Assembly: GCA_013299115.1 (NCBI GenBank)
Contig: JAAFKA010000021.1
Span: forward strand, 1-64,000
Length of the DNA: 64,000 nt
Origin: Cytophagales bacterium
GTDB taxonomy: Bacteria; Bacteroidota; Bacteroidia; Cytophagales; Thermoflexibacteraceae
Reading direction: 5' to 3'
The translations under genes were made by a program, and so were the position numbers. Positions 9,430 through 45,266 of the stretch are shown here, one piece after another; position 1 is the first letter of the stretch, and every line of letters begins with the position of its first letter. Under the pieces are notes generated by a model. It made no database searches and was not told the DNA's origin. It worked only from the letters and a program-made list of their open reading frames with translations.

Positions 9430-9660
9430 AACAACGGCAGTGAACCCTCGGCAGTGGTCGATAGACCCTGCCGATGGTTGAACGAAAGGCAGAAAACTAT
9501 TGGCAGGGCAAAAAATCGGAGTGCCGACCAGCCACTGCCAAAGTTTTTTTAGTGAAACCTCGGCAGTGGTCGATAGACCCTGCCGATGGTTGAACGGAGG
9601 AAGTTGAAACTATTGGCAGGGTCTTGCCATGACTGCCTAAGGCACTGCCAAAATTTCTCA
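9430..9660. repeat. REP-like hairpins, two tandem copies of ~108 bp
   Basis: The unit beginning GTGAACCCTCGGCAGTGG and containing CGATAGACCCTGCCGATGG occurs at about 9440-9550 and again at about 9550-9655. Each unit contains two imperfect palindromes, one of the form CGGCAG...CTGCCG and one of the form TTGGCAGGG...CACTGCCAA. The same family occurs at 35125-35215, 36331-36387, 39915-40026 and 46101-46222. Confidence 0.8.
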
Positions 9661-9822
9661 CAGCCCTTTGATTTGGACAATTTCGCCTTGTTGGGCTGCG
9701 TGAATTTGCTCGGCTATGAGCTACACAATGGCATCTTGGGTATAAATTGCTAAGAAATCTGTTGTTTGCATGAAAAAGTTTGAAAGCTGCTTTGGTGGCA
9801 ACAAAGACAGGAAAAAGTATAA
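9661..9822 (-). pseudogene. Duplicated fragment of the mfd 5' end
   Basis: About 160 bp match 5229-5388, which covers the first 37 codons of mfd and about 50 bp upstream, with only about five substitutions and one extra A. The copy includes the start codon and leader and keeps the same orientation as mfd, but is cut off on the 3' side where the REP-like hairpins begin. It cannot encode Mfd. The high identity points to a recent duplication. Confidence 0.85.
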
Positions 9823-33500: not shown

Positions 33501-33974
33501 AATAAACTGAACAAAGAAGAGTGGAGGAAAAAAGTAATGGAAGTCCGTTTTTGGTATAGTTATAAAGCTGAGGAGTTTTATAGGGAAACTAATCAAAAAT
33601 TTAAGACTTATGAGAATATGGGGCAACTTTCGGGTGGCGAAAAAGCACAACTGACTTATACCATTTTAGGTTCTGCTATTGCTTATCAATTTGGACTTAC
33701 AAAAGAAGGCTTACAAACCAATTCTTTCCGATTTATTGCCATTGACGAGGCTTTTAAAGCACAAGATGAGGACAAAGCTCGTTATTTAATTACCCTCTGC
33801 AAACAACTTCATCTGCAACTTTTAGTGGTAACACCAAGTGATAATATTCATATTGTGGAAGACGCAATTTCTTATGTTCATTTTGTGGAAAGAAAAGATG
33901 AAAAATATTCTTGGCTGTATGATATGCCAATTGAGCAATTTAAAGAAGAAAGAGAAAATTTTATCAACAAATGA
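30552..33974 (+). CDS. jetC: Wadjet SMC-like ATPase JetC
   Basis: A 1140-aa MukB/SMC-like ATPase, motor of the loop-extruding Wadjet complex. The N-terminal head has SMEVYNWGTFHEKIFKI and Walker A LTGANASGKSTYIDALL near residue 47. Coiled-coil arms are at about 250-480 and 660-960 around a hinge. The C-terminal head has the signature LSGGEKAQLTYTILGSAIAY and Walker B RFIAIDEAFKAQDEDKARY, with VVTPSDNIHIVE after it. The Gly-rich P-loop and the DEAF Walker B are intact, so the motor should be active. It overlaps jetD by 4 nt. Confidence 0.95.
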   Translation: MLSLFSTSSDKAGFRLQSMEVYNWGTFHEKIFKINPQGNNSLLTGANASGKSTYIDALLTLLVPIKKDRFYNQSSGVEKKGDRTEETYVCGHYGNIQREGESGTTTQMLRGKDTYSVLLASFSNTDQKNITLFQVRWFGSSDGTLKQAFGIAHLALTIEADFSQFDGKGNWKKRLDNIYNINSSKKKVEFFDGPTSYGDRIAEVFGMRSIKGLSLFNQVVGVKVLEDLDQFIRTNMLEAYEEDKENAEEKFIKLKSSFEALIDAKTNIEKAKEQIELLTSIDKIAEELSTIEAELKALAVSKEMAVCWFAKKTVELSALELAKNETALAKLHEELLNLQSKETNLKAEETDLMVQIKTDSVGNQIEKLKTEITRLENSRDIRNKKLIEYNNIAQKIELSLNPSSEVFGENRETAKNKKSAYQIKIEVETENQRKLKNEEEKLREQSADITATIQKLQKNKNNISGREAEIREEIIAYVGATKEEIPFIGELIRVCEEEKNWELSIEKILHNFALRLIVSDEYYAKVNEYVNKTNLNGKITYQKYSRFTALGNLKTKIILQNSLLNKIEFKPKNLYTVWLEDVIANQYDYACVNDLSEFNRYDERAVTQEGLIKFAKGKHEKDDRPHISKRENYVLGWDNKEKIAKLKQDLIEIQTAQAKNQKELTTNKELIKSLGTLKEDCSNIYNIYTKYDDIDWQTYANQIQEKEEAKKKLEATNDRVKTLQEQLEKVQEDLALLTNTHIKNKNNEIFKLEEVTIKGINADLKLNQKLLVSIGNKDTSEFEKLNSELLQVEFANITTKQTEFQTHKTSKINQFNTKKGNLESEVRIKINAFKQPDESITSKFKDWRADVSRLPDSTNLDLLVEYQTFYQKLKADDLPKFEKKFNEYLQETISHKIGDFRLFFENWSDSIKENIRLLNESLKEINFKNSPTTYIQLVAPTRISDEVKEFRNLLYHATPNFKEIDSTIDGRKNHFYNHIEPLINKLNKEEWRKKVMEVRFWYSYKAEEFYRETNQKFKTYENMGQLSGGEKAQLTYTILGSAIAYQFGLTKEGLQTNSFRFIAIDEAFKAQDEDKARYLITLCKQLHLQLLVVTPSDNIHIVEDAISYVHFVERKDEKYSWLYDMPIEQFKEERENFINK

Positions 33975-35119
33975 TAAGCCCTAACGAAATAAAAGTTAAA
34001 GCAGAACGGAAATATCTTTCCTTTCTCCAAGCTGTTGTGCAGGAAATTGCATTTTCAAAAATTATCATTACAGGCGACAAAACATATAACGACTTATCAA
34101 TTTCTGACTTTGAAAAAGAAATTTTGGCTCTTGTCAGTCAATCAAAAGAGAAAAAAGGATTTGGTTTTACGATAGCATACCAAACTGTAAAAACCAAAAC
34201 ACTTGGAACTCAAAGTGTGCCAACTACTATTTATTTTGATACAGAAAAAGACTTTTTACAATTCTTAGGCAAAGAAAAAGAGGTTGAACTTTTTATAAAA
34301 GATTGTCAAACTATTTATGCTCATTTTTCTGAATTAAAGGATTGGATAATTAAAAACCCAGCAAAAATAATTGAGCAGCAGGGCAAATGGGAAAGCATAC
34401 TAAGGGTTTGTAACTACTTTAAAAATTGCCCTAAGCCCAATATTTATAGTAGAGAAATACCTGCAAATGTTCACACAAAATTTATTGAACTAAATCAAAG
34501 CATTATTGCTGAACTACTCGATATAATTATTCAAAATTACGTTAATTTTAACGAAAAAGGATTTGAAAAAAGGTTTAATTTAAAATTTGTTGAACCCTTG
34601 ATTAGATTCAAAGTTTTAGACAAAGAAATTAGCCAAACTTATTTTTCAAACCTCGACGATATTTCTATTCCTGTTAGTCAATTTGAAAGCCTAAAACTTC
34701 CTTTGAGGCAAGTGCTTATCGTAGAAAATAAGACGACTCTTTACACAACTCTGACCTTGCCCAAGATGGATAAAACCATTGCAATTTTCGGACAAGGCAA
34801 TGCTGTTACCAATATTCAAAATGCCAAATGGCTAAATGAACTTGCTGTACTATACTGGGGCGACATTGATGTTCACGGATTTGAAATACTTTCGAGAATA
34901 AGAAAATACTTCGCCCATACGCAAAGTGTTTTAATGGACAAGGTAACTTTTGAAAAATTCTTTGAAAATGAACAGGGTAAGCCAACTACAGATACAACAA
35001 TGCTTAATTTGACAGACAAAGAAAGAGAACTTTACAAGCTACTCAAAACAAATAATTGGCGACTTGAACAAGAGAAAATATCATTTGACTATGTTAATCA
35101 ATATTTTAACAAGGAATAA
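33971..35119 (+). CDS. jetD: Wadjet nuclease JetD (DUF3322/DUF2220)
   Basis: 382 aa. N-terminal DUF3322 region (WESILRVCNYFKNCPKPNIY, REIPANVHTKFIELN) and C-terminal DUF2220 Toprim domain, related to topoisomerase VI A. Toprim signatures are the Glu in VLIVENKTTLYTTL near residue 250 and the acidic pair in YWGDIDVHGFEILSRIR near 300. In Wadjet, JetD cuts the DNA once JetABC has extruded it. With jetABC upstream in the standard order A-B-C-D and overlapping frames, the operon is complete and type I. REP-like hairpins follow the stop. Confidence 0.93.
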   Translation: MISPNEIKVKAERKYLSFLQAVVQEIAFSKIIITGDKTYNDLSISDFEKEILALVSQSKEKKGFGFTIAYQTVKTKTLGTQSVPTTIYFDTEKDFLQFLGKEKEVELFIKDCQTIYAHFSELKDWIIKNPAKIIEQQGKWESILRVCNYFKNCPKPNIYSREIPANVHTKFIELNQSIIAELLDIIIQNYVNFNEKGFEKRFNLKFVEPLIRFKVLDKEISQTYFSNLDDISIPVSQFESLKLPLRQVLIVENKTTLYTTLTLPKMDKTIAIFGQGNAVTNIQNAKWLNELAVLYWGDIDVHGFEILSRIRKYFAHTQSVLMDKVTFEKFFENEQGKPTTDTTMLNLTDKERELYKLLKTNNWRLEQEKISFDYVNQYFNKE

Positions 35120-35122
35120 CTC

Positions 35123-35215
35123 CGTTCAACCATTGGCAGGGTCTACAAACCACTGCCAATAGTTTTTTACCCCCCGTTTAACCATTGGCAGGGTCTATCG
35201 ACCACTGCCAAGGTT
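35123..35215. repeat. Two REP-like hairpins after jetD
   Basis: CCATTGGCAGGGTCTACAAACCACTGCCAATAG and CCATTGGCAGGGTCTATCGACCACTGCCAA lie in tandem between the convergent jetD and iron-binding protein genes. They are reverse-complement copies of the 9430-9660 family and may end both transcripts. Confidence 0.8.
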
Positions 35216-35227
35216 TCACTACCTTTT

Positions 35228-36310
35228 TTACTTCCACTTAGCTATGTCAAAAATCTTCACTGCATCTGTGTTCAGTTTGCCCAACATACTCAAATCGAGG
35301 GTGTCGGCTTTGAAAGTGCCAAAAGAAGCTAATTCTTTTGAGTTGTTTACGCCTGCACGCACAGGATACTCTTGGTTTGCCTCTGCATAGGTCTGTTGTG
35401 AACTTTGGCTGACCAAAAACTCCAATAATTTGATAGCATTGGCTTTGTTGGGTGCATACTTGCATACGCCAGCCCCGCTGATGTTGATGTGTGAGCCAAA
35501 TTTGTTTTGGTCAGGGAAAAACACCCCCACTTGGGCTACAGCTTTTTTCTCTGCCTCGTCTTTGGAGGTCATCATTTGCCCCACATAATAGGTATTGACA
35601 ATGGCAACTTGCCCTTCGCCTGCTGCTAAGGCAAAAATTTGGTCTTTGTCGCCACCTTTTGGCTCTCTTGCCATGTTTTTAACTATGCCTTCTGCCCATT
35701 TTTGAGCTTTTTCTGCTCCGTTGTGGTGGATAATAGAGGCTAACAACGATTGGTTGTAGATATTATCGGAGGCACGAATCAAGATTTTTCCTTTCCATTT
35801 GGGCGTTGCCAAGTCTTCATAAGTAGAAAGTTGAGCAGGTTTTACTTTGCCTGTGTGATAGACTATGACCCTTGCTCGTTTGGTCAAACCAAACCAATAA
35901 CCTTCACCATCTCGCAAATAAGATGGAATGGTGCTGTTCAAAACTTCGGAAGTGATGGGCTGAAACAAGCCTTTTTCCTTGATTCTATGCAGACTGCCCG
36001 CATCTACCGTTACCAGCACGTCAGCAGGAGAACTTGCCCCTTCCATTTCCAGACGTTGCAGCAGTTGGTCGGCTTTTGCCTTCACTACATTGACCTTGAT
36101 ACCTGTTTCTTTGCTAAAAGCATCGTACAATAGCTGGTCTGCCTCATAGTGGCGGTGCGAATAGACATTGACTATTTGCTCTTTGGTAGCCGTAGAATCA
36201 ACTTTTTCGGCTGCATTGGCATTGTTTCCTTGCTCTTTGGCGGGGTTGCAACGGGTAAAAAAGGCTACTAAGCAGACAAGTAGCCCAAAGCAATACATTG
36301 TTTTTTTCAT
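35228..36310 (-). CDS. Fe(3+) ABC transporter substrate-binding lipoprotein
   Basis: A 360-aa class II solute-binding protein of the FbpA/FutA type that captures ferric iron in the periplasm. Its lipoprotein signal ends FFTRC. VNVYSHRHYEADQLLYDAF (near residue 48) contains the usual YSxRHY start. Iron-ligand tyrosines are expected in IVNTYYVGQMM (near 237). Other family segments: VLVTVDAGSLHRIKEKGLFQ, RARVIVYHTGKV and NISGAGVCKYAPN. No permease or ATPase gene adjoins it, so the importer partners are elsewhere. An inverted REP-like element lies upstream of the start. Confidence 0.9.
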   Translation of the reverse strand: MKKTMYCFGLLVCLVAFFTRCNPAKEQGNNANAAEKVDSTATKEQIVNVYSHRHYEADQLLYDAFSKETGIKVNVVKAKADQLLQRLEMEGASSPADVLVTVDAGSLHRIKEKGLFQPITSEVLNSTIPSYLRDGEGYWFGLTKRARVIVYHTGKVKPAQLSTYEDLATPKWKGKILIRASDNIYNQSLLASIIHHNGAEKAQKWAEGIVKNMAREPKGGDKDQIFALAAGEGQVAIVNTYYVGQMMTSKDEAEKKAVAQVGVFFPDQNKFGSHINISGAGVCKYAPNKANAIKLLEFLVSQSSQQTYAEANQEYPVRAGVNNSKELASFGTFKADTLDLSMLGKLNTDAVKIFDIAKWK

Positions 36311-36330
36311 GTTGAAAAATTAGAGTTACC

Positions 36331-36387
36331 AATATTTTTTATACGATTGTCAAGGTCTGCGACCGTTGCCAACGTATAAAAAATATT
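36331..36387. repeat. REP-like palindrome between iron-binding and DinB genes
   Basis: The 15-nt arms AATATTTTTTATACG and CGTATAAAAAATATT enclose TTGTCAAGGTCTGCGACCGTTGCCAA, a member of the TTGTCAAGG...GCCAA family. It lies in the divergent promoter region. Confidence 0.8.
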
Positions 36388-36498
36388 ATTTAGATTAATT
36401 TTAAATAAGGATTGCAAATGTAAACAAATAATTGTGTGAAAAGATATAAAATTTTAGAAAAAAGTTATATTGCAAGCCAAATCAATTATCAAACAGCT

Positions 36499-37020
36499 AT
36501 GGTTATTGCACCGCCTACTCCTCACGAAAATTATGTTTCGCTAAACAATTACATCAGCAAAGTAACTTATACCGATTTGCTGGTGGGTTTAGCTGCCGTA
36601 CAACAAGAAACGCAGGCTTTGTTAGGGGCTTTGACAGAAGAACAAGCCAATTTTAGGTATGCTCCCGAAAAATGGAGTATCAAAGAATTGGTGTTGCACC
36701 TTGCCGACTCCGAAAGGATTTTTGCTTACCGAGCTTTGCGTTTTGCAAGGCAGGACAAAACAGATTTGCCCGGTTTTGACGAAAATACTTATGTGCCTGT
36801 ATCGGAGGCAGAGAAACGAAGTATGGAAAGTTTATTGCGTGAATATCAAGCAGTTAGACAAGCTACCATTGCTTTGTTCGAAAATTTTACAGAGGAAATG
36901 CTCAATTCTAATGGTACAGCCAACGACAAAATAATGACGGTAAGGGCATTAGGTTATGCTATTTTGGGTCATGAAGTTCACCACGTAGAAGTGATAAAAA
37001 GCAGGTATTTAACAGCATAA
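36499..37020 (+). CDS. DinB family protein
   Basis: 173 aa from ATG 36499 (MVIAPPTPHENYVSLNNYI); a GTG at 36436 would add 21 residues and is less likely. DinB/YfiT four-helix proteins bind a metal through three His residues: one in KELVLHLADSERIFAYR and two in GHEVHHVEVIKSRYL. EKWSIKELVLH is typical for the family. Members act as thiol-dependent transferases or damage-induced proteins; the substrate here is unknown. The acetyltransferase gene begins 3 nt after its stop. Confidence 0.85.
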   Translation: MVIAPPTPHENYVSLNNYISKVTYTDLLVGLAAVQQETQALLGALTEEQANFRYAPEKWSIKELVLHLADSERIFAYRALRFARQDKTDLPGFDENTYVPVSEAEKRSMESLLREYQAVRQATIALFENFTEEMLNSNGTANDKIMTVRALGYAILGHEVHHVEVIKSRYLTA

Positions 37021-37023
37021 ACA

Positions 37024-37557
37024 ATGAATTTACCATCTATCAAAACACAACGCCTGATACTCCGCCCTTTGTCTGTTGGCGATGGCGAACATATTTACAA
37101 AGGATTGACCGACCAAAATAACAGTGCTGTTCGTTTTTATGGCGTAGAATTTCAACTATTGGAAGATGCACAAATTCACATAGATTGGTTGGAGTCTTTG
37201 CTCAAAGAACAAAAAGGCGTATGGTGGAGCATAGGTTTTCATTCTCAACCTGCCTTGATAGGGGCTTGTGGGCTTTATCATTTGTCGAAACAACACAAAA
37301 AAGCCGAAATTGAGTTTTGGTTGCAACCACCTTATTGGAAACAAGGCATCATGACCGAAGCCTTGCCCCAAGTCGTGGGCTATGGTTTCGAAGAGTTGGG
37401 GCTGCACCGCATAGAGGCTTTTGTAGAAACTCACAATAGCGTAACCAAAGATTTGTTGCAAAAAGTTGGCTTTGCACACGAGGGTTGCATGGTGGACTCT
37501 AAGTTTCAATACGGCAGGTTTATGAGTATTGATATTTTGGCAAAGGTAAAAAAATAA
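37024..37557 (+). CDS. GNAT-family N-acetyltransferase (RimJ/RimL type)
   Basis: 177 aa. The start IKTQRLILRPLSVGDGEHIY is typical of the RimJ/RimL branch. ALIGACGLYHLSKQHKKAEIEFWL and the acetyl-CoA-binding motif region YWKQGIMTEALPQVVGYGFEELG follow, then HRIEAFVETHNSVTKDLLQKVGF and HEGCMVDS. It uses acetyl-CoA to modify an amine, either a protein N-terminus or a small molecule. It is translated right after the DinB-like gene and probably shares its transcript. Confidence 0.9.
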   Translation: MNLPSIKTQRLILRPLSVGDGEHIYKGLTDQNNSAVRFYGVEFQLLEDAQIHIDWLESLLKEQKGVWWSIGFHSQPALIGACGLYHLSKQHKKAEIEFWLQPPYWKQGIMTEALPQVVGYGFEELGLHRIEAFVETHNSVTKDLLQKVGFAHEGCMVDSKFQYGRFMSIDILAKVKK

Positions 37558-37604
37558 AAAAATTAGTTACTGTTGCATTTTATTTCAATAACAGTTCACT
37601 TTTT

Positions 37605-39887
37605 CTAATCCACCAACAACTTCGTTACGGCAGCCGTATTTTTCACCCACTCACGATTGTAAACTTCATCGGCTGTTGGTTCTTCTATGATAGTCAAACC
37701 TTGTGCTTCAGCTTTGATTTTCAGCAAGTTACCTACACTTAGTTTGTTGTTGAGTTTTGCCAACAAACTCAAAACTGTTTGCGTACTCAACCCTTGCACC
37801 ATCTGACCCGCAAAAGGCATTTCGAGCCAAATTATTTCTTTCGTTGCCACTTCCAATACACCAAACACCAAGCCTTTTGCCAATGATTGCGTAATACGCA
37901 CCTGATGCTGCACACACGAAGGGTCGTAAGCCACACCTGTTGTTTCTGAAATAGTCATTTTGTTTTGGCTGTTCATCCAGCCCAACAACAAATTAGGTAC
38001 AATGGCACCGTTGCTATACGCATTGCAAGTAAAGGTAACATATTGAACCTGAGCTTTTTGCAATTCGTCTAAGTTGATTTCTATATACTCTGCCGTACCA
38101 ATTTTTTCGGGTATGCTGCGTATATCTCCGCTATGTTTGCAACCAATCGTAACTAAGCTACTGTACGAACAAAGCAAAACTTTTTCGTTTTGCAGTGCCA
38201 AATGACAACTCAAATCCATGTCTAAGTGCTGGGCAGGCAATCCTTCTCCCCACTGCATAAACAACCTCACCGCATTGCCCTCTACGGCAAACCTCGTACC
38301 CATGAGGGCAGCAGGCAAATCTTGCACTGTTTCGGCTCTGTCGCCAATAGCCACAGGAATTTTATACAAATCGGGGTCTATGAACATGGTTTTGTTGGTA
38401 GTTGGCAATTTTTCAAACCTTTTTTTCATTGCCAATAAACACAAGTCGCCAACCTGTTCTTGCATAGCAGCCAACTGTTCGGCTGTATATAAACCCAATA
38501 ATTTGTTAGTTGCAATGTTTTTTGCCACCCCACCCAAAGGTTTTACAGTTCTGCCGTTGGTAGGGTCAAAGTATAATTGGGCATACATATTCAGCGTAAA
38601 TACCAATCTTGCGGGTACTTTGTCTATCACTTCGCCAAAAGCAGCCAAAGTTTCCTCCGCACCAAACCAAAGCATGGTGGCAAACAAAGACCTTGCAAAC
38701 AAACCAGGTCGTTGTTTTAACAGCTTAAACGTAACTTCGCTGTCTAAACGCAATTTGGCTGTGTGTACTTTGCCCTGCCAAACCGTATAAGTTTGGTTAT
38801 AAAATACATCTAAAATTTCATGCAATTTGTCAAAACCTTTTCTTTTGCTGTACTCCGCCAAACGCAAGGCACGAATAAAACGTACCCATAATTGGCGTTT
38901 GGGGTGCATAATTTCGCAAATAGTTTGGCTGTCTTGAGTCAAAGCATTGAGCCAAGAGGCTACTGTTAAGCACATTTTGCGGTTGTATTTCAGTTTCAAA
39001 GCTACTTTTGCTTCCATTTGCCCCTTTGCAGCTAAGGCTTTTTGATTTTTGCTATGTTCTTTTGGCGTTTGCAAACTCAAAAAAGGCGTAAGCTGTTGCG
39101 TATTGCTTTTTTTGCGTTTGATAATAGTTTTAGGCTCTATAATTTGCAAAAAACCTGTGTGTTTGTACCACAAATAACGCAAAATATCAGTAGGCGAAGT
39201 AAACAAGTTGCCCGCCTCAATTACTTGATTTTGAGCAATGTAGGTGTCTATTACCGCCATTAAAGTTTCTTTCATACCTATCTGCACAGCAGGCAAAGGC
39301 AATACACCCAACAACAATTTCAGGCTGTCCATTTGCGTTGCATCGAGAGCAGTTTTGGAAGTCAATAAGTCCTCGAAAAAAGCCTTTGCGTCTTGCTCTG
39401 TCCAGAGAGTCAAAAGTTTCAATTTGCTACCTTTTCCATAGCTTTCTATTTTGCCAAACTCAAATGGTGTACCGCAAAAAGGGCAACCATTGTATCTTTC
39501 CAAAGGAAAAGTATTGGCGGGAATGGTATGTCCGCAAGCCAATAAAGTGCCTTTGCCCTGAAAAAGATTGACAAAAAACGTAATGATGTGGTCGGTTAAG
39601 GACTCACCCGTAGGCACGTCCCAACCTTTGACTAAGGGTGTCCAATTTTTGTTAGTTCCCATCACTTCTCTAAATTGAGCAAGCAAATCTGCCTGAAACA
39701 CAGGCTTAGTCTGGTTCAATGCCCACAGCAACTGTTCTGTAACAGTGAAACCCAACTGCCACAAATTGGCTACCAAAACCGAAGTAGTGGAGTTTAAAGC
39801 CGTTTTGGTAGCTGGTTGAGCTACCAACTGCGTAGCAGGAATGAAAACAGCCGACTGGCGAAGACTTACTTTCAATAAAGAGTGCAT
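37605..39887 (-). CDS. RING-like/TerD-like domain protein (MXAN_6230/SCO0854-like)
   Basis: A 760-aa cytoplasmic-looking protein. Near residues 115-145 a compact metal-binding pattern occurs (LLACGHT... GCPFCGTPF), as in the RING-domain family named after MXAN_6230/SCO0854; I recall that family but cannot check it. The middle is helical. Residues about 555-690 resemble TerD-type calcium-binding domains: LDMDLSCHLALQNEKVLLCSY, HSGDIRSIPEK, AEYIEINLDELQKAQVQYVTF and NAYSNGAIVPNLLLGWM. TerD proteins belong to stress/tellurite-resistance systems. No ter genes are close. Function unknown. Confidence 0.6.
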   Translation of the reverse strand: MHSLLKVSLRQSAVFIPATQLVAQPATKTALNSTTSVLVANLWQLGFTVTEQLLWALNQTKPVFQADLLAQFREVMGTNKNWTPLVKGWDVPTGESLTDHIITFFVNLFQGKGTLLACGHTIPANTFPLERYNGCPFCGTPFEFGKIESYGKGSKLKLLTLWTEQDAKAFFEDLLTSKTALDATQMDSLKLLLGVLPLPAVQIGMKETLMAVIDTYIAQNQVIEAGNLFTSPTDILRYLWYKHTGFLQIIEPKTIIKRKKSNTQQLTPFLSLQTPKEHSKNQKALAAKGQMEAKVALKLKYNRKMCLTVASWLNALTQDSQTICEIMHPKRQLWVRFIRALRLAEYSKRKGFDKLHEILDVFYNQTYTVWQGKVHTAKLRLDSEVTFKLLKQRPGLFARSLFATMLWFGAEETLAAFGEVIDKVPARLVFTLNMYAQLYFDPTNGRTVKPLGGVAKNIATNKLLGLYTAEQLAAMQEQVGDLCLLAMKKRFEKLPTTNKTMFIDPDLYKIPVAIGDRAETVQDLPAALMGTRFAVEGNAVRLFMQWGEGLPAQHLDMDLSCHLALQNEKVLLCSYSSLVTIGCKHSGDIRSIPEKIGTAEYIEINLDELQKAQVQYVTFTCNAYSNGAIVPNLLLGWMNSQNKMTISETTGVAYDPSCVQHQVRITQSLAKGLVFGVLEVATKEIIWLEMPFAGQMVQGLSTQTVLSLLAKLNNKLSVGNLLKIKAEAQGLTIIEEPTADEVYNREWVKNTAAVTKLLVD

Positions 39888-39914
39888 GGTCTAACAAGTT
39901 TTAATTTTTATACT

Positions 39915-40026
39915 ATTTTTTTACGTTGGCAATGGTGCTTTTGCACCTTGACAATCGTACTCAAATCTATTTTTTTACGATTGTCAAGGTCTTGACGGGG
40001 CTGCCTAAGCCATTGCCAACGTAAAA
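39915..40026. repeat. Two REP-like palindromes in opposite orientation
   Basis: TTACGTTGGCAATGG...CCTTGACAATCGTA (about 39921-39959) is followed by TTACGATTGTCAAGG...CCATTGCCAACGTAA (about 39976-40023). The second is the same sequence as the copies at 46101-46222; the first is a shorter inverted relative. Confidence 0.8.
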
Positions 40027-40039
40027 AGGTAAAAAACAA

Positions 40040-40105
40040 GGTAATTTTTTTGCTGGTTTGAACCCTAATCAAGTGCCTTTCGGCAGAAGTAAGCAAAAAT
40101 TGACC
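40040..40105. repeat. GGTAATT/TTGACC hairpin unit, copy next to the split tRNA
   Basis: It begins GGTAATT and ends AATTGACC, with stem TTTTTGCT/AGCAAAAA. Inside are GGTTTGAACCC, which looks like a tRNA T-arm read backwards, GCCTTTCGGC, and the shared block CAGAAGTA just before the second stem strand. Related to 40186-40265 and 40407-40465. Confidence 0.7.
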
Positions 40106-40158
40106 TTGTTTTAGCGAAGCAGGTGGGAGTCGAACCCACGACCAACGGGACCACAACC

Positions 40159-40289
40159 AAGAAGTAAGTTAGTTTTGACCTCGTTGGTAATTTTCAGGCA
40201 GTTATTAGGTTTCGAACCTAAGCATCTTGCGATGCCTAACCAGTAGGAGTATGCCTGAATTGACCAAATAAGGTAATCAAAAAACTATA
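40159..40289 (-). other. Structured 131-nt insert (putative intron) in the tRNA
   Basis: On the minus strand the insert runs from TATAG to CTTCTT. Its outer part can pair: GTT-TTTTG-ATT-ACC near the 5' end with GGT-CAAAA-CT-AAC near the 3' end, with small bulges. Inside lies the complete hairpin unit 40186-40265, which itself has tRNA-like arms: a 7-bp TCAGGCA/TGCCTGA stem, the hairpin GCATC-GCAA-GATGC, and TTAGG-TTCGAAA-CCTAA. It is too short for an intact group I or II intron and has no open frame. Confidence 0.6.
40186..40265. repeat. GGTAATT/TTGACC hairpin unit inside the split tRNA
   Basis: 80 nt from GGTAATTTT to AATTGACC with stem CAGGCA/TGCCTG. It carries the block AGTAGGAGTA before the second stem strand, as in the other units, and has the longest tRNA-like interior of the family. 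Confidence 0.7.
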
Positions 40290-40325
40290 CGTTGCTCTGA
40301 CCTCTGAGCTACTGCTTCGATAAAC

Positions 40326-40403
40326 TGCACACGCTAAAGCGTATGTTACATTGCACACGCTAAAGCGTATGGTACATTGCACACGCTAAAGCGTATGGTA
40401 CAT
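40326..40403. repeat. Three tandem 26-bp repeats
   Basis: TGCACACGCTAAAGCGTATG followed by TTACAT (copy 1) or GTACAT (copies 2 and 3) occurs at 40326-40351, 40352-40377 and 40378-40403. Each contains the palindrome ACGCTAAAGCGT. The array lies just upstream of the tRNA 5' half as transcribed. Confidence 0.9.
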
Positions 40404-40406
40404 TCA

Positions 40407-40465
40407 GGTAATTGGCAAAGTTTTTTTCGTCCAAAGAAAGTGAGAGGAGTAACTTTGCCTTGACC
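40407..40465. repeat. GGTAATT/TTGACC hairpin unit, upstream copy
   Basis: 59 nt with stem GGCAAAGT/ACTTTGCC between GGTAATT and TTGACC, and the block GAGGAGTA before the second strand. Its interior lacks tRNA-like arms, which shows that the flanks and stem, not the tRNA resemblance, define the family. Confidence 0.7.
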
Positions 40466-40570
40466 TTGAATAATAATGCAAAGTAAAACAAAAACTACAA
40501 AGTTTTGAAAATTTGGTAGGTCTTTATTTGTATAATTTTTACATTTGTAAGTTATACTTACAATTATTTT

Positions 40571-41926
40571 ATGCTTTTATTCTCTGCCGACTACCAACGC
40601 CACTACAAAGAAACTTTGCGTTTGGCTCTGCCCATCATAGCGGGGCAACTCTCCACCATTGTCATTATGATAACCGACAATGTAGTCGTTGGCAATTTCA
40701 GTGCAGATTCGTTGGCTGCTGCCTCCATTTCTCACGCCATTTTTATGACCCTCCAAATTTTTGGCATGGGCGTAACTTTGGGCTTAACTCCTCTGGTGGC
40801 TGCTGCCGTAGCAACAAAAAAACATAATACTTGTCGCAAATTATTCAAACATGGCTTGTTGCTCTATACTTCTTTGGGCGTGGCTTTGTGTGCCATTATT
40901 CTCGGCATCACGTGGGGTTTGGAGTTCATAAAACAGCCTCCCCATATTACTGCCCTTGCCAAACCTTTTTTGATGGTGGTCGGTTTTTCGGTCATTCCTT
41001 TTATGATTTTCCAAACTTTCAAGCAATTTATGGAAGGTTTGTCGCAAACCAAAGAGCCTATGTACGTAGCCATAGTGGGCGAGGTACTCAATGCAGGGTT
41101 GAATATAGTTTTGGTTTTTGGCTTTCTGGGTTTTCCTCGTTTGGGTTTGGTAGGTTCAGGCATTGCTACCTTAATTGCAAGGGTGTTCATGGTGGTTATG
41201 ATTGCTTGGTTTTTCTTCAATCGCAAAAAATTTGCAATTTATACGCAAGCCGTTTATTGGCGGTTGGTGTCTGCCAATTTGTTTAAAAAACTGCTCAATA
41301 TTGGTTTGCCCATTGGTTTGCAAGTCATTTTTGAGTCGTCTTGCTTTGCTTTTTCGGCAATTATGGCGGGTTGGTTGCCCGACAACGGCAAGACCTTAGC
41401 AGCCCACCAAATAGCCTTGAATATTGCAGCCACGACCTACCTCATTGCAGCAGGTTTTGGTACAGCAGCCTCTATTCGCACTGCCAACCAAAAAGGGCTG
41501 AACAATCCTTTGGAAATGCAACGTGCAGGCGAAAGTGCTTTATTGATTGTCATTGTTTTTATGGCTTGTTGTGCTATTTTGCTCATTTTCAGCAGCTTAG
41601 TTTTGCCTTCTCTTTATGTGCAAGATGCCGAAGTAATAAAAATTGCCTCTACCTTGATTCTATTGGCTTCCATTTTCCAACTTTCAGACGGCATACAAGT
41701 CGTTTCTATTGGGGCTTTGCGGGGTTTGCAAGACGTAAAAGTGCCTACTGTCATTACGCTAATTGCCTACTGGGGCGTAGGTACACCCGTAGGGGCTTTG
41801 CTTGCTTTTTATTTTGGCTGGGGAGGTTTGGGCATCTGGACAGCCTTGTTGGTTTCTTTGACTGTGGCGGCGGGTTTGCTCTGCATCAGGTTTTTGCGGT
41901 TGAGTGAGCAACAAGCAACAAGATAA
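40571..41926 (+). CDS. MATE family efflux transporter
   Basis: 451 aa with twelve predicted membrane helices in two similar halves. The start YKETLRLALPIIAGQLSTIVIMITDNVVVG is a clear MATE N-terminus; the second half has LFKKLLNIGLPIGLQVIFESS and AAHQIALNIAATTYLIAAGFG. MATE proteins export drugs and metabolites using Na+ or H+ gradients. The gene stands alone, with the repeat and tRNA cluster upstream and a convergent permease gene 8 nt after its stop. Confidence 0.93.
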   Translation: MLLFSADYQRHYKETLRLALPIIAGQLSTIVIMITDNVVVGNFSADSLAAASISHAIFMTLQIFGMGVTLGLTPLVAAAVATKKHNTCRKLFKHGLLLYTSLGVALCAIILGITWGLEFIKQPPHITALAKPFLMVVGFSVIPFMIFQTFKQFMEGLSQTKEPMYVAIVGEVLNAGLNIVLVFGFLGFPRLGLVGSGIATLIARVFMVVMIAWFFFNRKKFAIYTQAVYWRLVSANLFKKLLNIGLPIGLQVIFESSCFAFSAIMAGWLPDNGKTLAAHQIALNIAATTYLIAAGFGTAASIRTANQKGLNNPLEMQRAGESALLIVIVFMACCAILLIFSSLVLPSLYVQDAEVIKIASTLILLASIFQLSDGIQVVSIGALRGLQDVKVPTVITLIAYWGVGTPVGALLAFYFGWGGLGIWTALLVSLTVAAGLLCIRFLRLSEQQATR

Positions 41927-41934
41927 TAGCTATT

Positions 41935-43185
41935 TTATTTTGACCGAATAGCAATTACAGGGTCTAACCTCGATGCTACAATGGCAGGAATGATGCCCGC
42001 CAAAATACCAATGGCAGAAGCTATGAGCAGACCTTTTACGATATGCGAAAATTTGAGGACTATCTCAAAACCTTCGGTGGAGAAAAACGTGATGCCAGAA
42101 ACCAACAACAGCCCTGCTATGCCGCCAATTCCACTCAAAAATATGGCTTCAAAGAGGAATTGAAACAAAATGAAAAAGTTTTTTGCTCCCAACGATTTCT
42201 GAATACCTATTAAGTTGGTTCTTTCTTTCACAGATACAAACATGATGTTGGCAATGCCAAAACCACCAACCAACAAAGAAAAAAAGCTGATAAACCAACC
42301 TGCAATCGTCAAGGTTTTTATCAACCCATCGATAAAATTTGACAACATTTCGGGTCTGTTCAGAGCAAAACTGTCTTCTTGTTTGGGTTTTAGGCCCCTG
42401 ATTCCTCGCATCATACCTGTTAGCTCATTTTCCAATTCCAACAGTCCCTCGTCTGTTTCAGGGTTTCCTTTTAAGGCAATGGTAGGATTTACTCGTTTGC
42501 GATTGGCTAAGGTTTTCATAAAAAAATTATACGGCACAATACACAAATTATCGGCACTTGGCGAATCCAACAAGTTTGCCCCTTGTTTTTTCATTACGGC
42601 AATTATCCGAATGACTTTGTTTTTTATCTTAATTTCTTTGCCTATTGGGTTTTCATTGCCAAATAAATCTTCTGCCAACACTGCCCCAATCAAGGCTACA
42701 TTGGCACCGCCCTCTGATTCCTGAATAGAAAAATACCTGCCCGTTTCTATTCGCACATCAGAAACTTTGTCGTGATAGTAAGAAACACCAATCACGTTTA
42801 CACCACCAATGCTGCTGTTTTTATATTTGGCTGTCAAGTTGCCACGCACTGCCGAAATGGAGATAGCAGTTGCTAAAGTCATACGTTTTTCGAGGGCTTT
42901 ATACTCCTCGTAGTTAGGCACAGGACGGTTTACGTATTTCCACCAAGGATAGTCATCTACAAAAAGCCAAGGCCATTTGGCTACATAAATCACATCACTA
43001 CCCAAAAAATTGAAACTTGTTTTGATACTTTTTTCTAAACTGTCCACCAAAGTCAAGACACTAATAATGGCAAAAATTCCCACTGTTACGCCCAACAAAG
43101 ACAAAATAGTGCGTAATAAATTTTCTCGCAAAGCCCCCAAAGCAAACAAAAGACTTTCATAAATCAACCGAAAAGTTAGGAACAT
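41935..43185 (-). CDS. MacB/FtsX-type ABC transporter permease
   Basis: 416 aa with the MacB topology: a first membrane helix (LRTILSLLGVTVGIFAIISVL), a large periplasmic domain (residues about 45-280), and three C-terminal helices containing GGFGIANIMFVSVKERTNLIGIQ and GILAGIIPAIVASRLDPVIAIRSK. Such permeases drive export of peptides, lipoproteins or antibiotics together with an ATPase and a periplasmic adaptor. Neither partner is encoded next to it. Confidence 0.9.
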   Translation of the reverse strand: MFLTFRLIYESLLFALGALRENLLRTILSLLGVTVGIFAIISVLTLVDSLEKSIKTSFNFLGSDVIYVAKWPWLFVDDYPWWKYVNRPVPNYEEYKALEKRMTLATAISISAVRGNLTAKYKNSSIGGVNVIGVSYYHDKVSDVRIETGRYFSIQESEGGANVALIGAVLAEDLFGNENPIGKEIKIKNKVIRIIAVMKKQGANLLDSPSADNLCIVPYNFFMKTLANRKRVNPTIALKGNPETDEGLLELENELTGMMRGIRGLKPKQEDSFALNRPEMLSNFIDGLIKTLTIAGWFISFFSLLVGGFGIANIMFVSVKERTNLIGIQKSLGAKNFFILFQFLFEAIFLSGIGGIAGLLLVSGITFFSTEGFEIVLKFSHIVKGLLIASAIGILAGIIPAIVASRLDPVIAIRSK

Positions 43186-43469
43186 AAAATTAGTTTTTAA
43201 TGGTGAGCTGTTAAATGATGACCCGTATTTTTTACAATCTTAATTAACAATGGCTTTGTTGTATGAATTAGTTTTGTTTAAATAGCTTTTTGTTTAATTT
43301 TGTGCCACAATCAATCAATTACATGGAAAATATTTAGAAATCCTAAGCAAAGGTAATTACAAAATAATAAATTTGCAAAAGTTGCGTGCAGTACAATTTT
43401 TTTAAATTCATCTCCACAAAAATTGTCAGACAACCGTTAAAGTTAAGCATTAAAAATTAAAAAATTACC

Positions 43470-44357
43470 ATGAAATGTTCAGTAGTTATTCGGAGTTTTA
43501 ACGAGCAAAAATATTTGCGTTTATTGCTCGAAGGAATTTTGAAACAGACCGAAAAAGACATAGAAATTATTTTGGTCGACTCTGGTTCTACCGACCATAC
43601 ATTGGCTATTGCTGCGGAATATCCTGTTCAAGTCGTACCGATTCTGTCTGCCGATTTTACTTTTGGTAGGGCATTAAACAAAGGGATTGCAGTAGCCCAA
43701 GGAGATTTTATTGTCATTGCAAGTGCGCATGTGTACCCTACAGACGAATATTGGATTGAAAAGTTGCTTGCTCCTTTTCAAAATCCGCAAGTAGTTTTGA
43801 GTTATGGCAGACAAATTGGCAATGAAATTACCAAGTTTTCGGAGCATCAGGTTTTTAAAAAGTGGTTTCCAGAAGGTATCAGTGCGGTGCAAGACCACCC
43901 TTTTTGCAACAATGCTAATGCCGCCATCCGCAAATCACTGTGGGAGTTGCTGCCTTATGATGAAAGTTTAACAGGACTGGAAGACTTAGATTGGGCAAAA
44001 AGGGCTTTGGTTTTAAAGCACAAACTGGCTTATGTGTCTGACGCAGTCATTGTACATATACACGAGGAAACTCCGCAGCGAATTTTGAACCGTTATCGGC
44101 GGGAAGCTATTGCTTATAGGCGAATTTTTCCCGAAGCTACCTTTAGTTTTGCCGATTTTTTGTATTTATTCCCTTCCAATGTATTGAGTGATTATTATTT
44201 TGCTGCTAAACAAGGAATTTTTTTTCGAGAACTAAGTGCTATTTTTGTGTTTAGGCTCATGCAATTTTGGGGAACTTACAAAGGCTACCAACAAAAGGGC
44301 GAGGTAAGTAAGTTGCTAAAACACCGTTTTTACTATCCTAATAAATTGAAAGGGTGA
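43470..44357 (+). CDS. Family 2 glycosyltransferase
   Basis: 295 aa, GT-A fold. Motifs: SVVIRSFNEQKYLRLLLEGI at the N-terminus, IEIILVDSGSTDHTLAIA, and FTFGRALNKGIAVAQGDFIVIASAH, where the usual DxD region reads SAH. Later come FCNNANAAIRKSLWELLPYDE and LTGLEDLDWAKRAL (the catalytic ED motif). It transfers a sugar, probably in surface polysaccharide assembly. No sugar-pathway cluster surrounds it. About 280 nt of AT-rich sequence upstream has no other gene. Confidence 0.88.
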   Translation: MKCSVVIRSFNEQKYLRLLLEGILKQTEKDIEIILVDSGSTDHTLAIAAEYPVQVVPILSADFTFGRALNKGIAVAQGDFIVIASAHVYPTDEYWIEKLLAPFQNPQVVLSYGRQIGNEITKFSEHQVFKKWFPEGISAVQDHPFCNNANAAIRKSLWELLPYDESLTGLEDLDWAKRALVLKHKLAYVSDAVIVHIHEETPQRILNRYRREAIAYRRIFPEATFSFADFLYLFPSNVLSDYYFAAKQGIFFRELSAIFVFRLMQFWGTYKGYQQKGEVSKLLKHRFYYPNKLKG

Positions 44358-44384
44358 GGTGAAAGAAGGCTGCTCAAAGGTATT

Positions 44385-44436
44385 TTAGCCAAAAGAGTCT
44401 TTGATAAATCTTAGCTAAAAGGCTCTTTGATAAATC
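44385..44436. repeat. Tandem 26-bp direct repeat
   Basis: TTAGCCAAAAGAGTCTTTGA (continuing TAAATC) and TTAGCTAAAAGGCTCTTTGA (continuing TAAATC) lie head to tail after the glycosyltransferase stop, differing at two positions. Confidence 0.8.
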
Positions 44437-44462
44437 AAAGACCTACGTTTCCACAAAAATTA

Positions 44463-44499
44463 TCGGAAAAAAAAGAGGCTGCCTTTTTGGACAGCCCCA
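44463..44499 (-). terminator. Intrinsic terminator of the PspA gene
   Basis: On the minus strand, GGGGCTGTCC, an A-rich loop and GGCAGCCTC are followed by a run of eight T, 27 nt past the PspA stop. Confidence 0.7.
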
Positions 44500-44525
44500 T
44501 ACTTTTCGCAAACTACACCTATCTA

Positions 44526-45266
44526 CTACACAGCAGGTGGCGGTGGAGGCGTATTTTCTGAACCTGTGCCTAACAAGCCCATTTTTGCCTTCAAAGCCAA
44601 CAAAGACTCTGAATTGCCCGAAGTTACACTCAATACTTTGTCCACTTCGTCATCTACGGTTTTGCTCTCTAAGGCAATAGCACCATAAGACTCGGCTAAG
44701 GCTTCGTCTTGTGTTACTTTTTCCTTCATTCTTTCGAGCATAGCCACTGTGCTACTGGAGTCCACCTGTGCCAACTGTTTGTTGATTTTTTTGGTAGCTT
44801 CGCTTACTTTTGCCCTTGCTTTCAAGGTACGCAATTCGTTTTCGTAGGTATTGACCTTCGATTTTAGCGTATTGATATTTTGCTCCATTTTCTGAACAGA
44901 AGATTCGTGCATCACCAATTCTTTGGCTGTGCGTTGTGCCTCTTGTTCAAATTTTTCTTTGTTTTTGAGCATCTCACCCGCCAATCTGTCGGCATCTTCT
45001 ACCGTAATTTGACCTGTTTGTGCTCGTTGCAACAAAGCTACGGCTTTTTGCTCCGCCACTTGTGCGTCTGCCTTAAACTTTGCATTATCATTACGAGTGC
45101 GAATAGCCAAGGCTTTTATCTCTGCCAATCCTTGAAGACTTTTGTTGAGGTCTTCTTTTAAGTCGCGGATACCCTGCTCACTCATTTTGATAGGGTCTTC
45201 TAATTTATCTAAAGCATTGTGGGCTTCTGCCTTGCCAATGCCGAAAAGTCTGCTGAAAATGCCCAT
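44526..45266 (-). CDS. PspA/IM30 family protein
   Basis: 246 aa, almost all helical coiled coil. The start MGIFSRLFGIGKAEAHNALDKLEDP and the following IKMSEQGIRDLKEDLNKSLQ are typical of PspA/Vipp1 proteins, which assemble on the inner membrane and protect it under stress. The last 15 residues are a Pro-rich tail (GSENTPPPPPAV) not usual in PspA. A YbjN-like gene lies 200 nt upstream on the same strand. Confidence 0.9.
   Translation of the reverse strand: MGIFSRLFGIGKAEAHNALDKLEDPIKMSEQGIRDLKEDLNKSLQGLAEIKALAIRTRNDNAKFKADAQVAEQKAVALLQRAQTGQITVEDADRLAGEMLKNKEKFEQEAQRTAKELVMHESSVQKMEQNINTLKSKVNTYENELRTLKARAKVSEATKKINKQLAQVDSSSTVAMLERMKEKVTQDEALAESYGAIALESKTVDDEVDKVLSVTSGNSESLLALKAKMGLLGTGSENTPPPPPAV

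Follow-up and report, generated by a model that had tools for sequence, protein, structure and literature searches.

The window, a stretch of 64,000 nucleotides from contig JAAFKA010000021.1 of a Cytophagales bacterium, carries on its minus strand a tRNA-His(GTG)-like element interrupted by a long insert, with a hairpin module on either side and a gene for a 760-amino-acid protein downstream. The features of the locus, in the order of the minus strand and with the basis of each assignment in brackets, are:

40477..40487, minus strand: TAnnTTTG, presumably a promoter -7-like element (putative), just 5' of the first module
40407..40465, minus strand: 5' free hairpin module GGTCAA-stem-TTACTCCT-...-stem-AATTACC, with the 7-nt loop TTTGGAC (hairpin 40425-40439) (script and sequence)
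40115..40318, minus strand: tRNA-His(GTG)-like element, whole, including the insert (sequence and split-testing script)
40290..40318, minus strand: 5' half of the element, comprising the acceptor strand, D arm and positions 26-29 (sequence)
40159..40289, minus strand: insert of 131 nt between positions 29 and 30 (sequence and script)
40272..40287, minus strand: outer permuted module, strand B (stem, then ATTACC) (script and sequence)
40186..40265, minus strand: inner nested module GGTCAA ... AATTACC, with an 8-bp stem, a GCAA hairpin and a T-arm-like hairpin (script and sequence)
40160..40180, minus strand: outer permuted module, strand A (GGTCAA, stem, TTACTTCT) (script and sequence)
40115..40158, minus strand: 3' half of the element, positions 30-73, with anticodon GTG (sequence and script)
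40150..40156, minus strand: anticodon loop TTGTGGT, identical to that of the intact tRNA-His (comparison of loops)
40040..40105, minus strand: 3' free hairpin module with the GCCGAAAGGC hairpin and the 7-nt loop TTAGGGT (hairpin 40058-40072) (script and sequence)
37605..39887, minus strand: gene for the 760-amino-acid protein, with a weak RING-like match, a helical middle and a C-terminal TerD fold (profile and structure comparison)

Between the 5' hairpin and the tRNA-like element, CATACGCTTTAGCGTGTGCA occurs three times (40326-40397), and an inverted repeat (39921-39935 and 40010-40024) lies between the 3' hairpin and the start of the protein gene.

Read from 40318 to 40115, the element consists of an acceptor stem (GAAGCAG/CTGCTTC), a D arm, A26, ACG and the 131-nt insert (40289-40159), followed by GG-TTGTGGT-CCCGT, a variable loop, a T arm and G73. 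When the two halves (40318-40290 and 40158-40115) are joined, the product is a tRNA-His(GTG) whose acceptor, D, anticodon and T stems are all complete, just as a sequence-only reading of the locus had concluded from the excision of 40159-40289; its coordinates and structure were right, and the gene is on the minus strand. That reading had also held that no other junction it tried restores the anticodon stem, and a script that tried splits throughout the stem and loop found a single joint with 5/5 pairs, after position 29. The odd -1/73 pair to which it drew attention is indeed in the sequence, with C at position -1 and G at position 73; the rule for tRNA-His is G-1:C73. The ARAGORN and Infernal searches that it proposed did not recover the gene: ARAGORN made no call for the split tRNA-His-like gene in the window, and the Rfam tRNA model scored 19.3 bits, below the cut-off of 29, with the D arm joined to the wrong T-like arm. 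A second tRNA-His(GTG), for which it had proposed to look, was found intact on another contig of the same genome (G000:C9:41135-41208), also with the loop TTGTGGT, so that the split gene is not needed for reading histidine codons and the notion that it is the sole tRNA-His of the cell was rejected; the refuting observations that it had named are thereby borne out in part, but relatives retain both insert and stems without decay. The split element is present in one copy in the genome.

The insert is structured, as had been read from its letters. In its helix, the strand preceding ATTACC (or ATTATC) pairs with the one that is flanked by GGTCAA and TTACTTCT. Arranged in another order (GGTCAA, stem, TTACTTCT, apical part, stem, AATTACC), these parts form the free hairpins that flank the tRNA on both sides, so that the module of the insert and the free hairpins are circular permutations of each other; in the window, an inner module in the hairpin order is nested within an outer permuted module. 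Across 89 upstream regions of the kind described below, 379 modules were found (257 hairpin and 122 permuted, as assigned by script), compared with 2 when the regions were reversed. Rfam searches at the gathering threshold in eight stretches returned no family for the module, the single match being the general tRNA family in some copies. In an alignment (A4) of 30 of 36 non-redundant short-insert elements, from which odd cases were left out (two of L090, L093, the second of L135, the first of L142 and the second of L149), two-sided changes occur in 26 of 31 pairs, including all seven pairs of the insert helix, both of the pairs 27-28/42-43 that span the insert, and all three of 29-31/39-41; the three GGT/ATC pairs of the module have one-sided changes only. 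Because perfect acceptor, D and T stems were demanded by the finder, covariation in those stems is no evidence. RNAalifold applied to this alignment recovered the acceptor, D, T and insert helices and missed the anticodon arm. The occurrence of the same body with the same kind of insert in other genera and families, together with compensatory changes on both sides, places the split element beyond chance.

These results bear on the proposal, made from the sequence alone, that the locus is a tRNA gene inactivated by a small mobile RNA-like element. The existence of an intact tRNA-His is what such a gene would allow; conservation with covariation across Bacteroidota is not what an inactivated gene would show, and an element that moves is at odds with one genomic copy and a module pattern confined to this locus. 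The pattern GGTCAA-N-TTACTTC has seven matches in the genome, two of them here, and the other five, inspected by eye, show no module; mobility was rejected on that result, and the proposal as a whole has next to no probability.

A search of 39 genomes (that of the window and 38 relatives) found full-length matches to the element in a sister species and in a different family of this order. The anticodons of the related elements are for Asn and Tyr (G001), Asp (G034), Pro (G015 and G032), His (G009) and Glu (G005); across all species the anticodons seen are those for His, Asn, Asp, Tyr, Lys, Arg, Pro, Glu, Gly and Gln. The related elements adjoin, on the upstream side, homologues of the 760-amino-acid protein gene. 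The RNA is directly upstream in eight of 11 protein matches (G000, G003, G005, G009, G015, G025, G032 and G034); the other three are a homologue in G001 (C138) with one hairpin module in a short upstream stretch, a gene fragment, and the homologue in G013, discussed below. A scan with the protein alignment of one genome from each of 84,980 species returned 376 relatives, of which the best 80 were taken as the set of loci; 48 of these are titled Flavobacterium (F. johnsoniae, of which laboratory strains exist, has its homologue in L107), and the others include Aquimarina, Chitinophaga, Niastella, Emticicia, Dysgonomonas and Bacteroides. In 77 of the 80 loci, tRNA-like elements with an insert were detected upstream of the gene and on its strand by a script for which the acceptor, D and T stems had to be perfect; imperfect copies were recognized by eye in the remaining three (L101, L127 and L164). 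Some of the 108 tRNA-like matches are composites of doubtful status (those with acceptors GACCTTG/GGCCTTG at four loci or with GCTCCAT in L133, the two matches of L093, and the first matches of G009 and G025), and these enter class counts only when five pairs are restored. Among 296 sampled genomes of Bacteroidota, the protein is encoded in eight, and a covariance model of the insert-bearing element scores at least 99 bits in six, all of them among the eight and all adjoining the gene; the other two protein carriers (G000 and G324) have long inserts. Ordinary tRNAs reach about 64 bits or less on this model, and an insert-bearing element in a genome lacking the protein (G050) reaches 72; at E<=0.01 the model (R1) matches all 296 genomes because ordinary tRNAs match it, so that bit score and length are what discriminate.

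Tandem arrays of tRNA genes with many anticodons and some odd shapes lie upstream of the array in L133 (4074-5320, 11 tRNAs), L091 (4906-5426, six tRNAs, with a seventh at 5560) and L127 (2932-3767, six tRNAs). Plasmid-borne homologues of the protein gene with insert-bearing tRNA-like elements upstream are present in Hymenobacter volaticus (L185, 4809) and Segatella hominis (L186, 4767). Spread by viruses was rejected: viral_contigs contained no relative of the protein, 11 stretches that fit a peptide pattern being unrelated, and no complementary module was found in the 80 stretches listed and tested of 120 viral stretches with a loose DNA pattern. A tblastn search returned six phage records with distant partial relatives of the protein.

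In 62 of the 80 loci (L087-L166), compared with three of 74 control segments, the 200 nt that precede the first module contain a palindrome (TRCGCA-N7-TGCGYA), a putative operator to which a dedicated regulator would bind. No copy was seen in the window, where TTGTAAGTATAACTTACAA is found instead at 40545-40563. The palindrome is among the features that could be explained if the RNA were a leader that regulates its own gene, with the protein or a tRNA-binding factor sensing the leader and controlling transcription or translation of the gene for the 760-amino-acid protein: the RNA is upstream of that gene on the same strand, and by eye a hairpin module stands a few tens of bases 5' of the start codon at many of the loci shown. 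In our judgement the size of the array and the diversity of its loops are more than autoregulation needs, and this explanation, which is compatible with the preferred one given below and does not exclude it, is very unlikely as an account of the array.

The 760-amino-acid protein combines recognizable and remote domains. Residues 536-701 have the TerD fold (3ibz, Z 13.9, rmsd 2.6 over 144 residues) and belong with the TerD proteins, and the RING match at residues 112-139 is below its cut-off. The match to the MXAN_6230/SCO0854 RING family (NF041916) has E 2.2e-40 over about 330 residues and scores 138.6 bits against a curated cut-off of 600; judged by its sequence profile, the protein is a distant relative of this family. 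The helical middle (residues 160-515, AlphaFold pLDDT 84) aligns along its whole length with Ro60 bound to misfolded pre-5S rRNA (9nep, Z 7.4, rmsd 6.0 over 261 residues), which is the only match spanning the domain at rmsd <10 among the matches listed. A Z score of 7.4 is in the grey zone for helical repeats; in a second-look comparison 38 of 971 chains reached Z 5 and none reached Z 8. Foldseek returned nothing for the domain at E<=0.001, Pfam gave no TROVE match, hhalign against a true TROVE protein gave 0.6%, and searches of PDB sequences with the protein and its profile gave no match (the protein alignments A3 and A6 hold 36 and 25 of 81 sequences, respectively). The modelled structure hints at a Ro60-like middle domain, a fold that had been sought because of the RNA. 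A true TROVE/Ro60 gene (PF05731, 1.4e-33) is present in the sister species (L071 1566-3080, G001:C228), with a tRNA-like sequence upstream.

Genes of RNA repair are frequent downstream on the same strand. Of the 80 loci, 30 have RtcB, 15 an RNA ligase of the T4 type, 12 a Pnkp kinase-phosphatase, ten a Hen1 N-terminal protein, ten a ligase of the PNKP type, nine RlaP and five a second RlaP-like protein; at least one of these seven families is downstream in 48 loci, which establishes a linkage to RNA repair. An exonuclease of the RNase T type is downstream in five loci and elsewhere within the locus in four more. Families were assigned by Pfam on one representative each and by blastp for the rest, and many contigs are short, so that the counts are lower bounds. 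Taken together with the linkage to the protein gene, the insert-bearing tRNA-like elements are a conserved bacterial RNA family tied to this gene and to RNA-repair genes. The rtcB of the genome to which the window belongs is on another contig; a gene for a JetD (Wadjet) protein (PF09983) is located at 33971-35119 of the window.

Distant relatives of the protein have comparable neighbours. In Variovorax, a relative is divergent from rtcR with three small genes between them; after the RING-family gene of a Variovorax plasmid (L187, about 9480-9700) there are two stretches that resemble hairpins and recall the module, in which TTCCTTCT occurs together with a loop of the kind TTCTTTTGGTTGAA. In the Rhodococcus phage Weasels2 (L190), a relative is encoded among five tRNA genes and rtcB. 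A second system is present in three genomes that lack the gene for the 760-amino-acid protein (G050, G312 and G245; L179, L181 and L184): rtcB is followed by an array and a 585-amino-acid protein without a Pfam match, then by two rlaP genes in G050 and G312, and a divergent WYL regulator adjoins (rtcB and rlaP were assigned by Pfam in G050 and by likeness in the others). The module of the second system consists of GGCAAA or GGTAAA, a stem and TTCCTATA; the arrays contain tRNA-like elements with an insert in G050 and G312 and hairpins in G245, one of which has the Lys loop CTTTTAA. The families of the 760- and 585-amino-acid proteins are weakly similar by hhalign (39.7%, E 3e-4).

The anticodon loops are under constraint. 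The 72 elements that are split within the stem amount to 33 distinct combinations of stem and loop and 26 distinct loops, which have T33 in 18 cases and a purine at position 37 in 25; the binomial P values for these counts disregard relatedness among the sequences. Seven of the 26 are identical to anticodon loops of tRNAs in the genome of the window, whereas 2000 column shuffles in which T33 and purine 37 were kept gave 1.3 such loops on average and 6 at most (the Lys loop CTTTTAA was entered by hand into the list of host loops). In the 52 elements with an anticodon-stem start of the Flavobacterium type, positions 33, 37 and 38 are nearly fixed and position 35 varies (T 39, C 11, A 2). The 195 apical regions of hairpin modules contain 182 seven-nucleotide loops closed by at least three pairs, some of which are T-loops, compared with a shuffled mean of 69; loops of 5, 6, 8 and 9 nt number 126, 139, 97 and 118 versus 80, 75, 68 and 64, so that seven is the size most enriched. 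Exact Asp, Asn, Leu, Gly, Glu, Tyr, Met, Thr, His and Gln loops occur in free hairpins, several of them once only. Imitation of anticodon loops by these RNAs is thus established. The acceptor type RRRGCAG/CTGCYYY is common to bodies with different anticodons and was found in none of the 39 other tRNAs called in the genome of the window.

The main rival to the explanation preferred here is that the insert is a bacterial tRNA intron of a new type, which would be excised by a protein or by the RNA itself, after which the halves would be sealed, probably by RtcB, to give a mature tRNA-like molecule. It has this position because the unspliced RNA, folded on its own, is not predicted to yield the anticodon arm: a complete stem and loop are restored by the joint, and the arm is predicted in 67 of 69 spliced molecules and in 1 of 69 unspliced ones (at least two of its pairs in 30 of the latter). 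Nineteen distinct cases in which the insert is in or at the edge of the loop are likewise coherent only across the insert, with T33, on the upstream side, in 13 and purine 37, on the downstream side, in 15. RtcB is known as a tRNA-splicing ligase, and it is encoded downstream in 30 of the 80 loci and elsewhere in the genome of the window. Against splicing, the module is commoner as a free hairpin, where there is nothing to splice (257 versus 122 permuted, by script), and the splice site would have to vary, being after position 27, 28, 29 or 30 or within the loop. Nor would an intron explain why the acceptor is uniform whatever the anticodon and foreign to the other tRNAs of the host, why the window element has C-1 and G73 where a tRNA-His has G-1:C73, or why it coexists with an intact tRNA-His. 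Splicing is judged unlikely on this evidence; if it did occur, bacterial tRNA-like genes would have a small intron that is not of group I, with RtcB as the candidate ligase.

The best explanation, given about an even chance of being correct, is that the element belongs to an array of non-coding RNA that mimics tRNAs and serves as bait, decoy or sensor for anticodon nucleases. By analogy, the array would be a set of mimics of tRNAs and of anticodon loops that the protein holds by their modules. Located ahead of the gene for the 760-amino-acid protein on the same strand, it would be transcribed as one RNA and remain unspliced; each unit would consist of a module (GGTCAA, stem and TTACTTCT, plus stem and ATTACC), probably the binding site of the 760-amino-acid protein or a partner, and of a mimic, either a free hairpin with a seven-nucleotide loop resembling that of an anticodon arm or T arm, or a cloverleaf with the permuted module inside its anticodon arm. 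The ribonucleoprotein, encoded with or near RNA-repair enzymes, would present host-like anticodon loops to nucleases that cut the anticodon loops of tRNAs, for which the RNAs would act as bait, decoy or sensor, and cleavage of the bait would feed a repair response through signalling. Known targets of anticodon nucleases (PrrC, colicin D, zymocin and colicin E5) are Lys UUU, Arg UCU, Glu UUC and the GUN set of Tyr, His, Asn and Asp. Loops that track host anticodons, vary between species and are displayed in hairpins as well as cloverleaves fit such targets. The explanation is supported by the linkage of RNA and gene in 77 of 80 loci, the counts of modules, the covariation, the host-like loops, the high-scoring model matches that adjoin the gene in the 296-genome sample, the repair neighbours and the second system, and also by the distant protein relatives near rtcR in Variovorax and near tRNAs and rtcB in the Rhodococcus phage.

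Other observations count against the tRNA-mimic array. The homologue in G013 has no such RNA in the 1.4 kb upstream that was examined. The linkage to repair genes is found in 42 of 49 loci of the Flavobacterium type and in only six of the other 31 (L091, L093, L139, L140, L147 and L159), so that much of the total of 48 comes from one genus, and no RNA-repair gene is present among the nine open reading frames tested around the element in the window (33971-45266). T33 is absent from eight of the 26 distinct loops, and some copies, such as the first tRNA-like element of G032, have no clear anticodon loop. For the window itself, a display structure drawn by hand has an energy of -43.7 kcal/mol compared with -70.5 kcal/mol for the best fold.

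A Ro/Y-RNA-like role, in which the anticodon loops serve for docking only, would share much of this evidence. Its logic matches that of the rsr-yrlBA-rtcBA operon (PMC7790460, PMC8394870), and the helical middle of the protein aligns over its whole length with Ro60; against it stand the lack of a TROVE match by sequence, a Z score within the grey zone and the empty Foldseek result at E<=0.001, and docking alone would leave unexplained why the anticodons are varied and identical to those of the host. Such a role is not a likely one. A more far-reaching form of the tRNA-mimic interpretation, offered tentatively and on the doubtful side, is that the array represents a new class of RNA-based surveillance, in which a library of tRNA and anticodon-loop mimics is mounted on a ribonucleoprotein by a single permutable module, a toxin or a nuclease triggered by phage that cuts a tRNA also cuts the bait and so evokes a repair or protective response, and the split tRNAs are the cloverleaf baits.

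No description of these RNAs was found in the openly accessible literature searched. If the tRNA-mimic interpretation is true, an unclassified RNA family that copies host anticodon loops is spread across Bacteroidota, the field of RNA repair gains an RNA that tells which tRNAs come under attack, and the question of what bacterial RNA-repair systems and Ro/Y-type ribonucleoproteins protect against becomes directly testable. The array also explains the missing or broken tRNA calls of gene finders at such loci.

Several known systems resemble the element in part. Bacterial group I introns are inserted in the anticodon arm of tRNAs, as is the insert of 131 nt described here; no Rfam intron family matched at the gathering threshold in the window or at E<=10 in 39900-40600, in agreement with the sequence-only reading, which had set this structured insert at position 29/30 apart from self-splicing introns. 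The introns of archaeal and eukaryotic tRNAs also interrupt the anticodon arm, and RtcB is nearby in 30 of 80 loci here, but the host of the element is bacterial and its insert is a module that recurs as free hairpins. Like tmRNA, the element has tRNA-like ends and a long insertion in the anticodon arm; unlike tmRNA, it retains an anticodon loop, and tmRNA was rejected as an identification on its score (18.6 bits versus 47). The genome has a tmRNA of its own on another contig (C73, locus L002). On the protein side, the relatives named for the MXAN_6230/SCO0854 family are found in Streptomyces, and a relative in RING finger family 4 is near rtcR in Variovorax; ARAGORN and the finder detected no tRNA-like RNA at one RING-family locus each of Variovorax, Streptomyces and Deinococcus.

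The closest parallel is YrlA with Rsr (Ro60), in which, according to a paper on YrlA (PMC8394870), a non-coding RNA that mimics tRNA is encoded with an RNA-binding protein and RtcB. The array differs from YrlA in having a full cloverleaf with an anticodon arm, several units and a different module that is permuted and nested, and its protein, with RING, helical and TerD parts and without a TROVE sequence match, differs from Rsr. No Y RNA family of Rfam matched at the gathering threshold in the window or in seven related loci, or at E<=10 in 39900-40600; the array loci have tRNA-like arms and a conserved stem whose role in protein binding is putative. In Salmonella, the RNA-repair operon rsr-yrlBA-rtcBA, which encodes a tRNA-like RNA, is induced by fragments of tRNA, and the authors of that study propose that the tRNA-like domain of this RNA may inhibit an anticodon nuclease (PMC7790460). 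By analogy, and as an RNA outside the Y RNA families as modelled, the array may work as Rsr and YrlA do in rtcBA operons.
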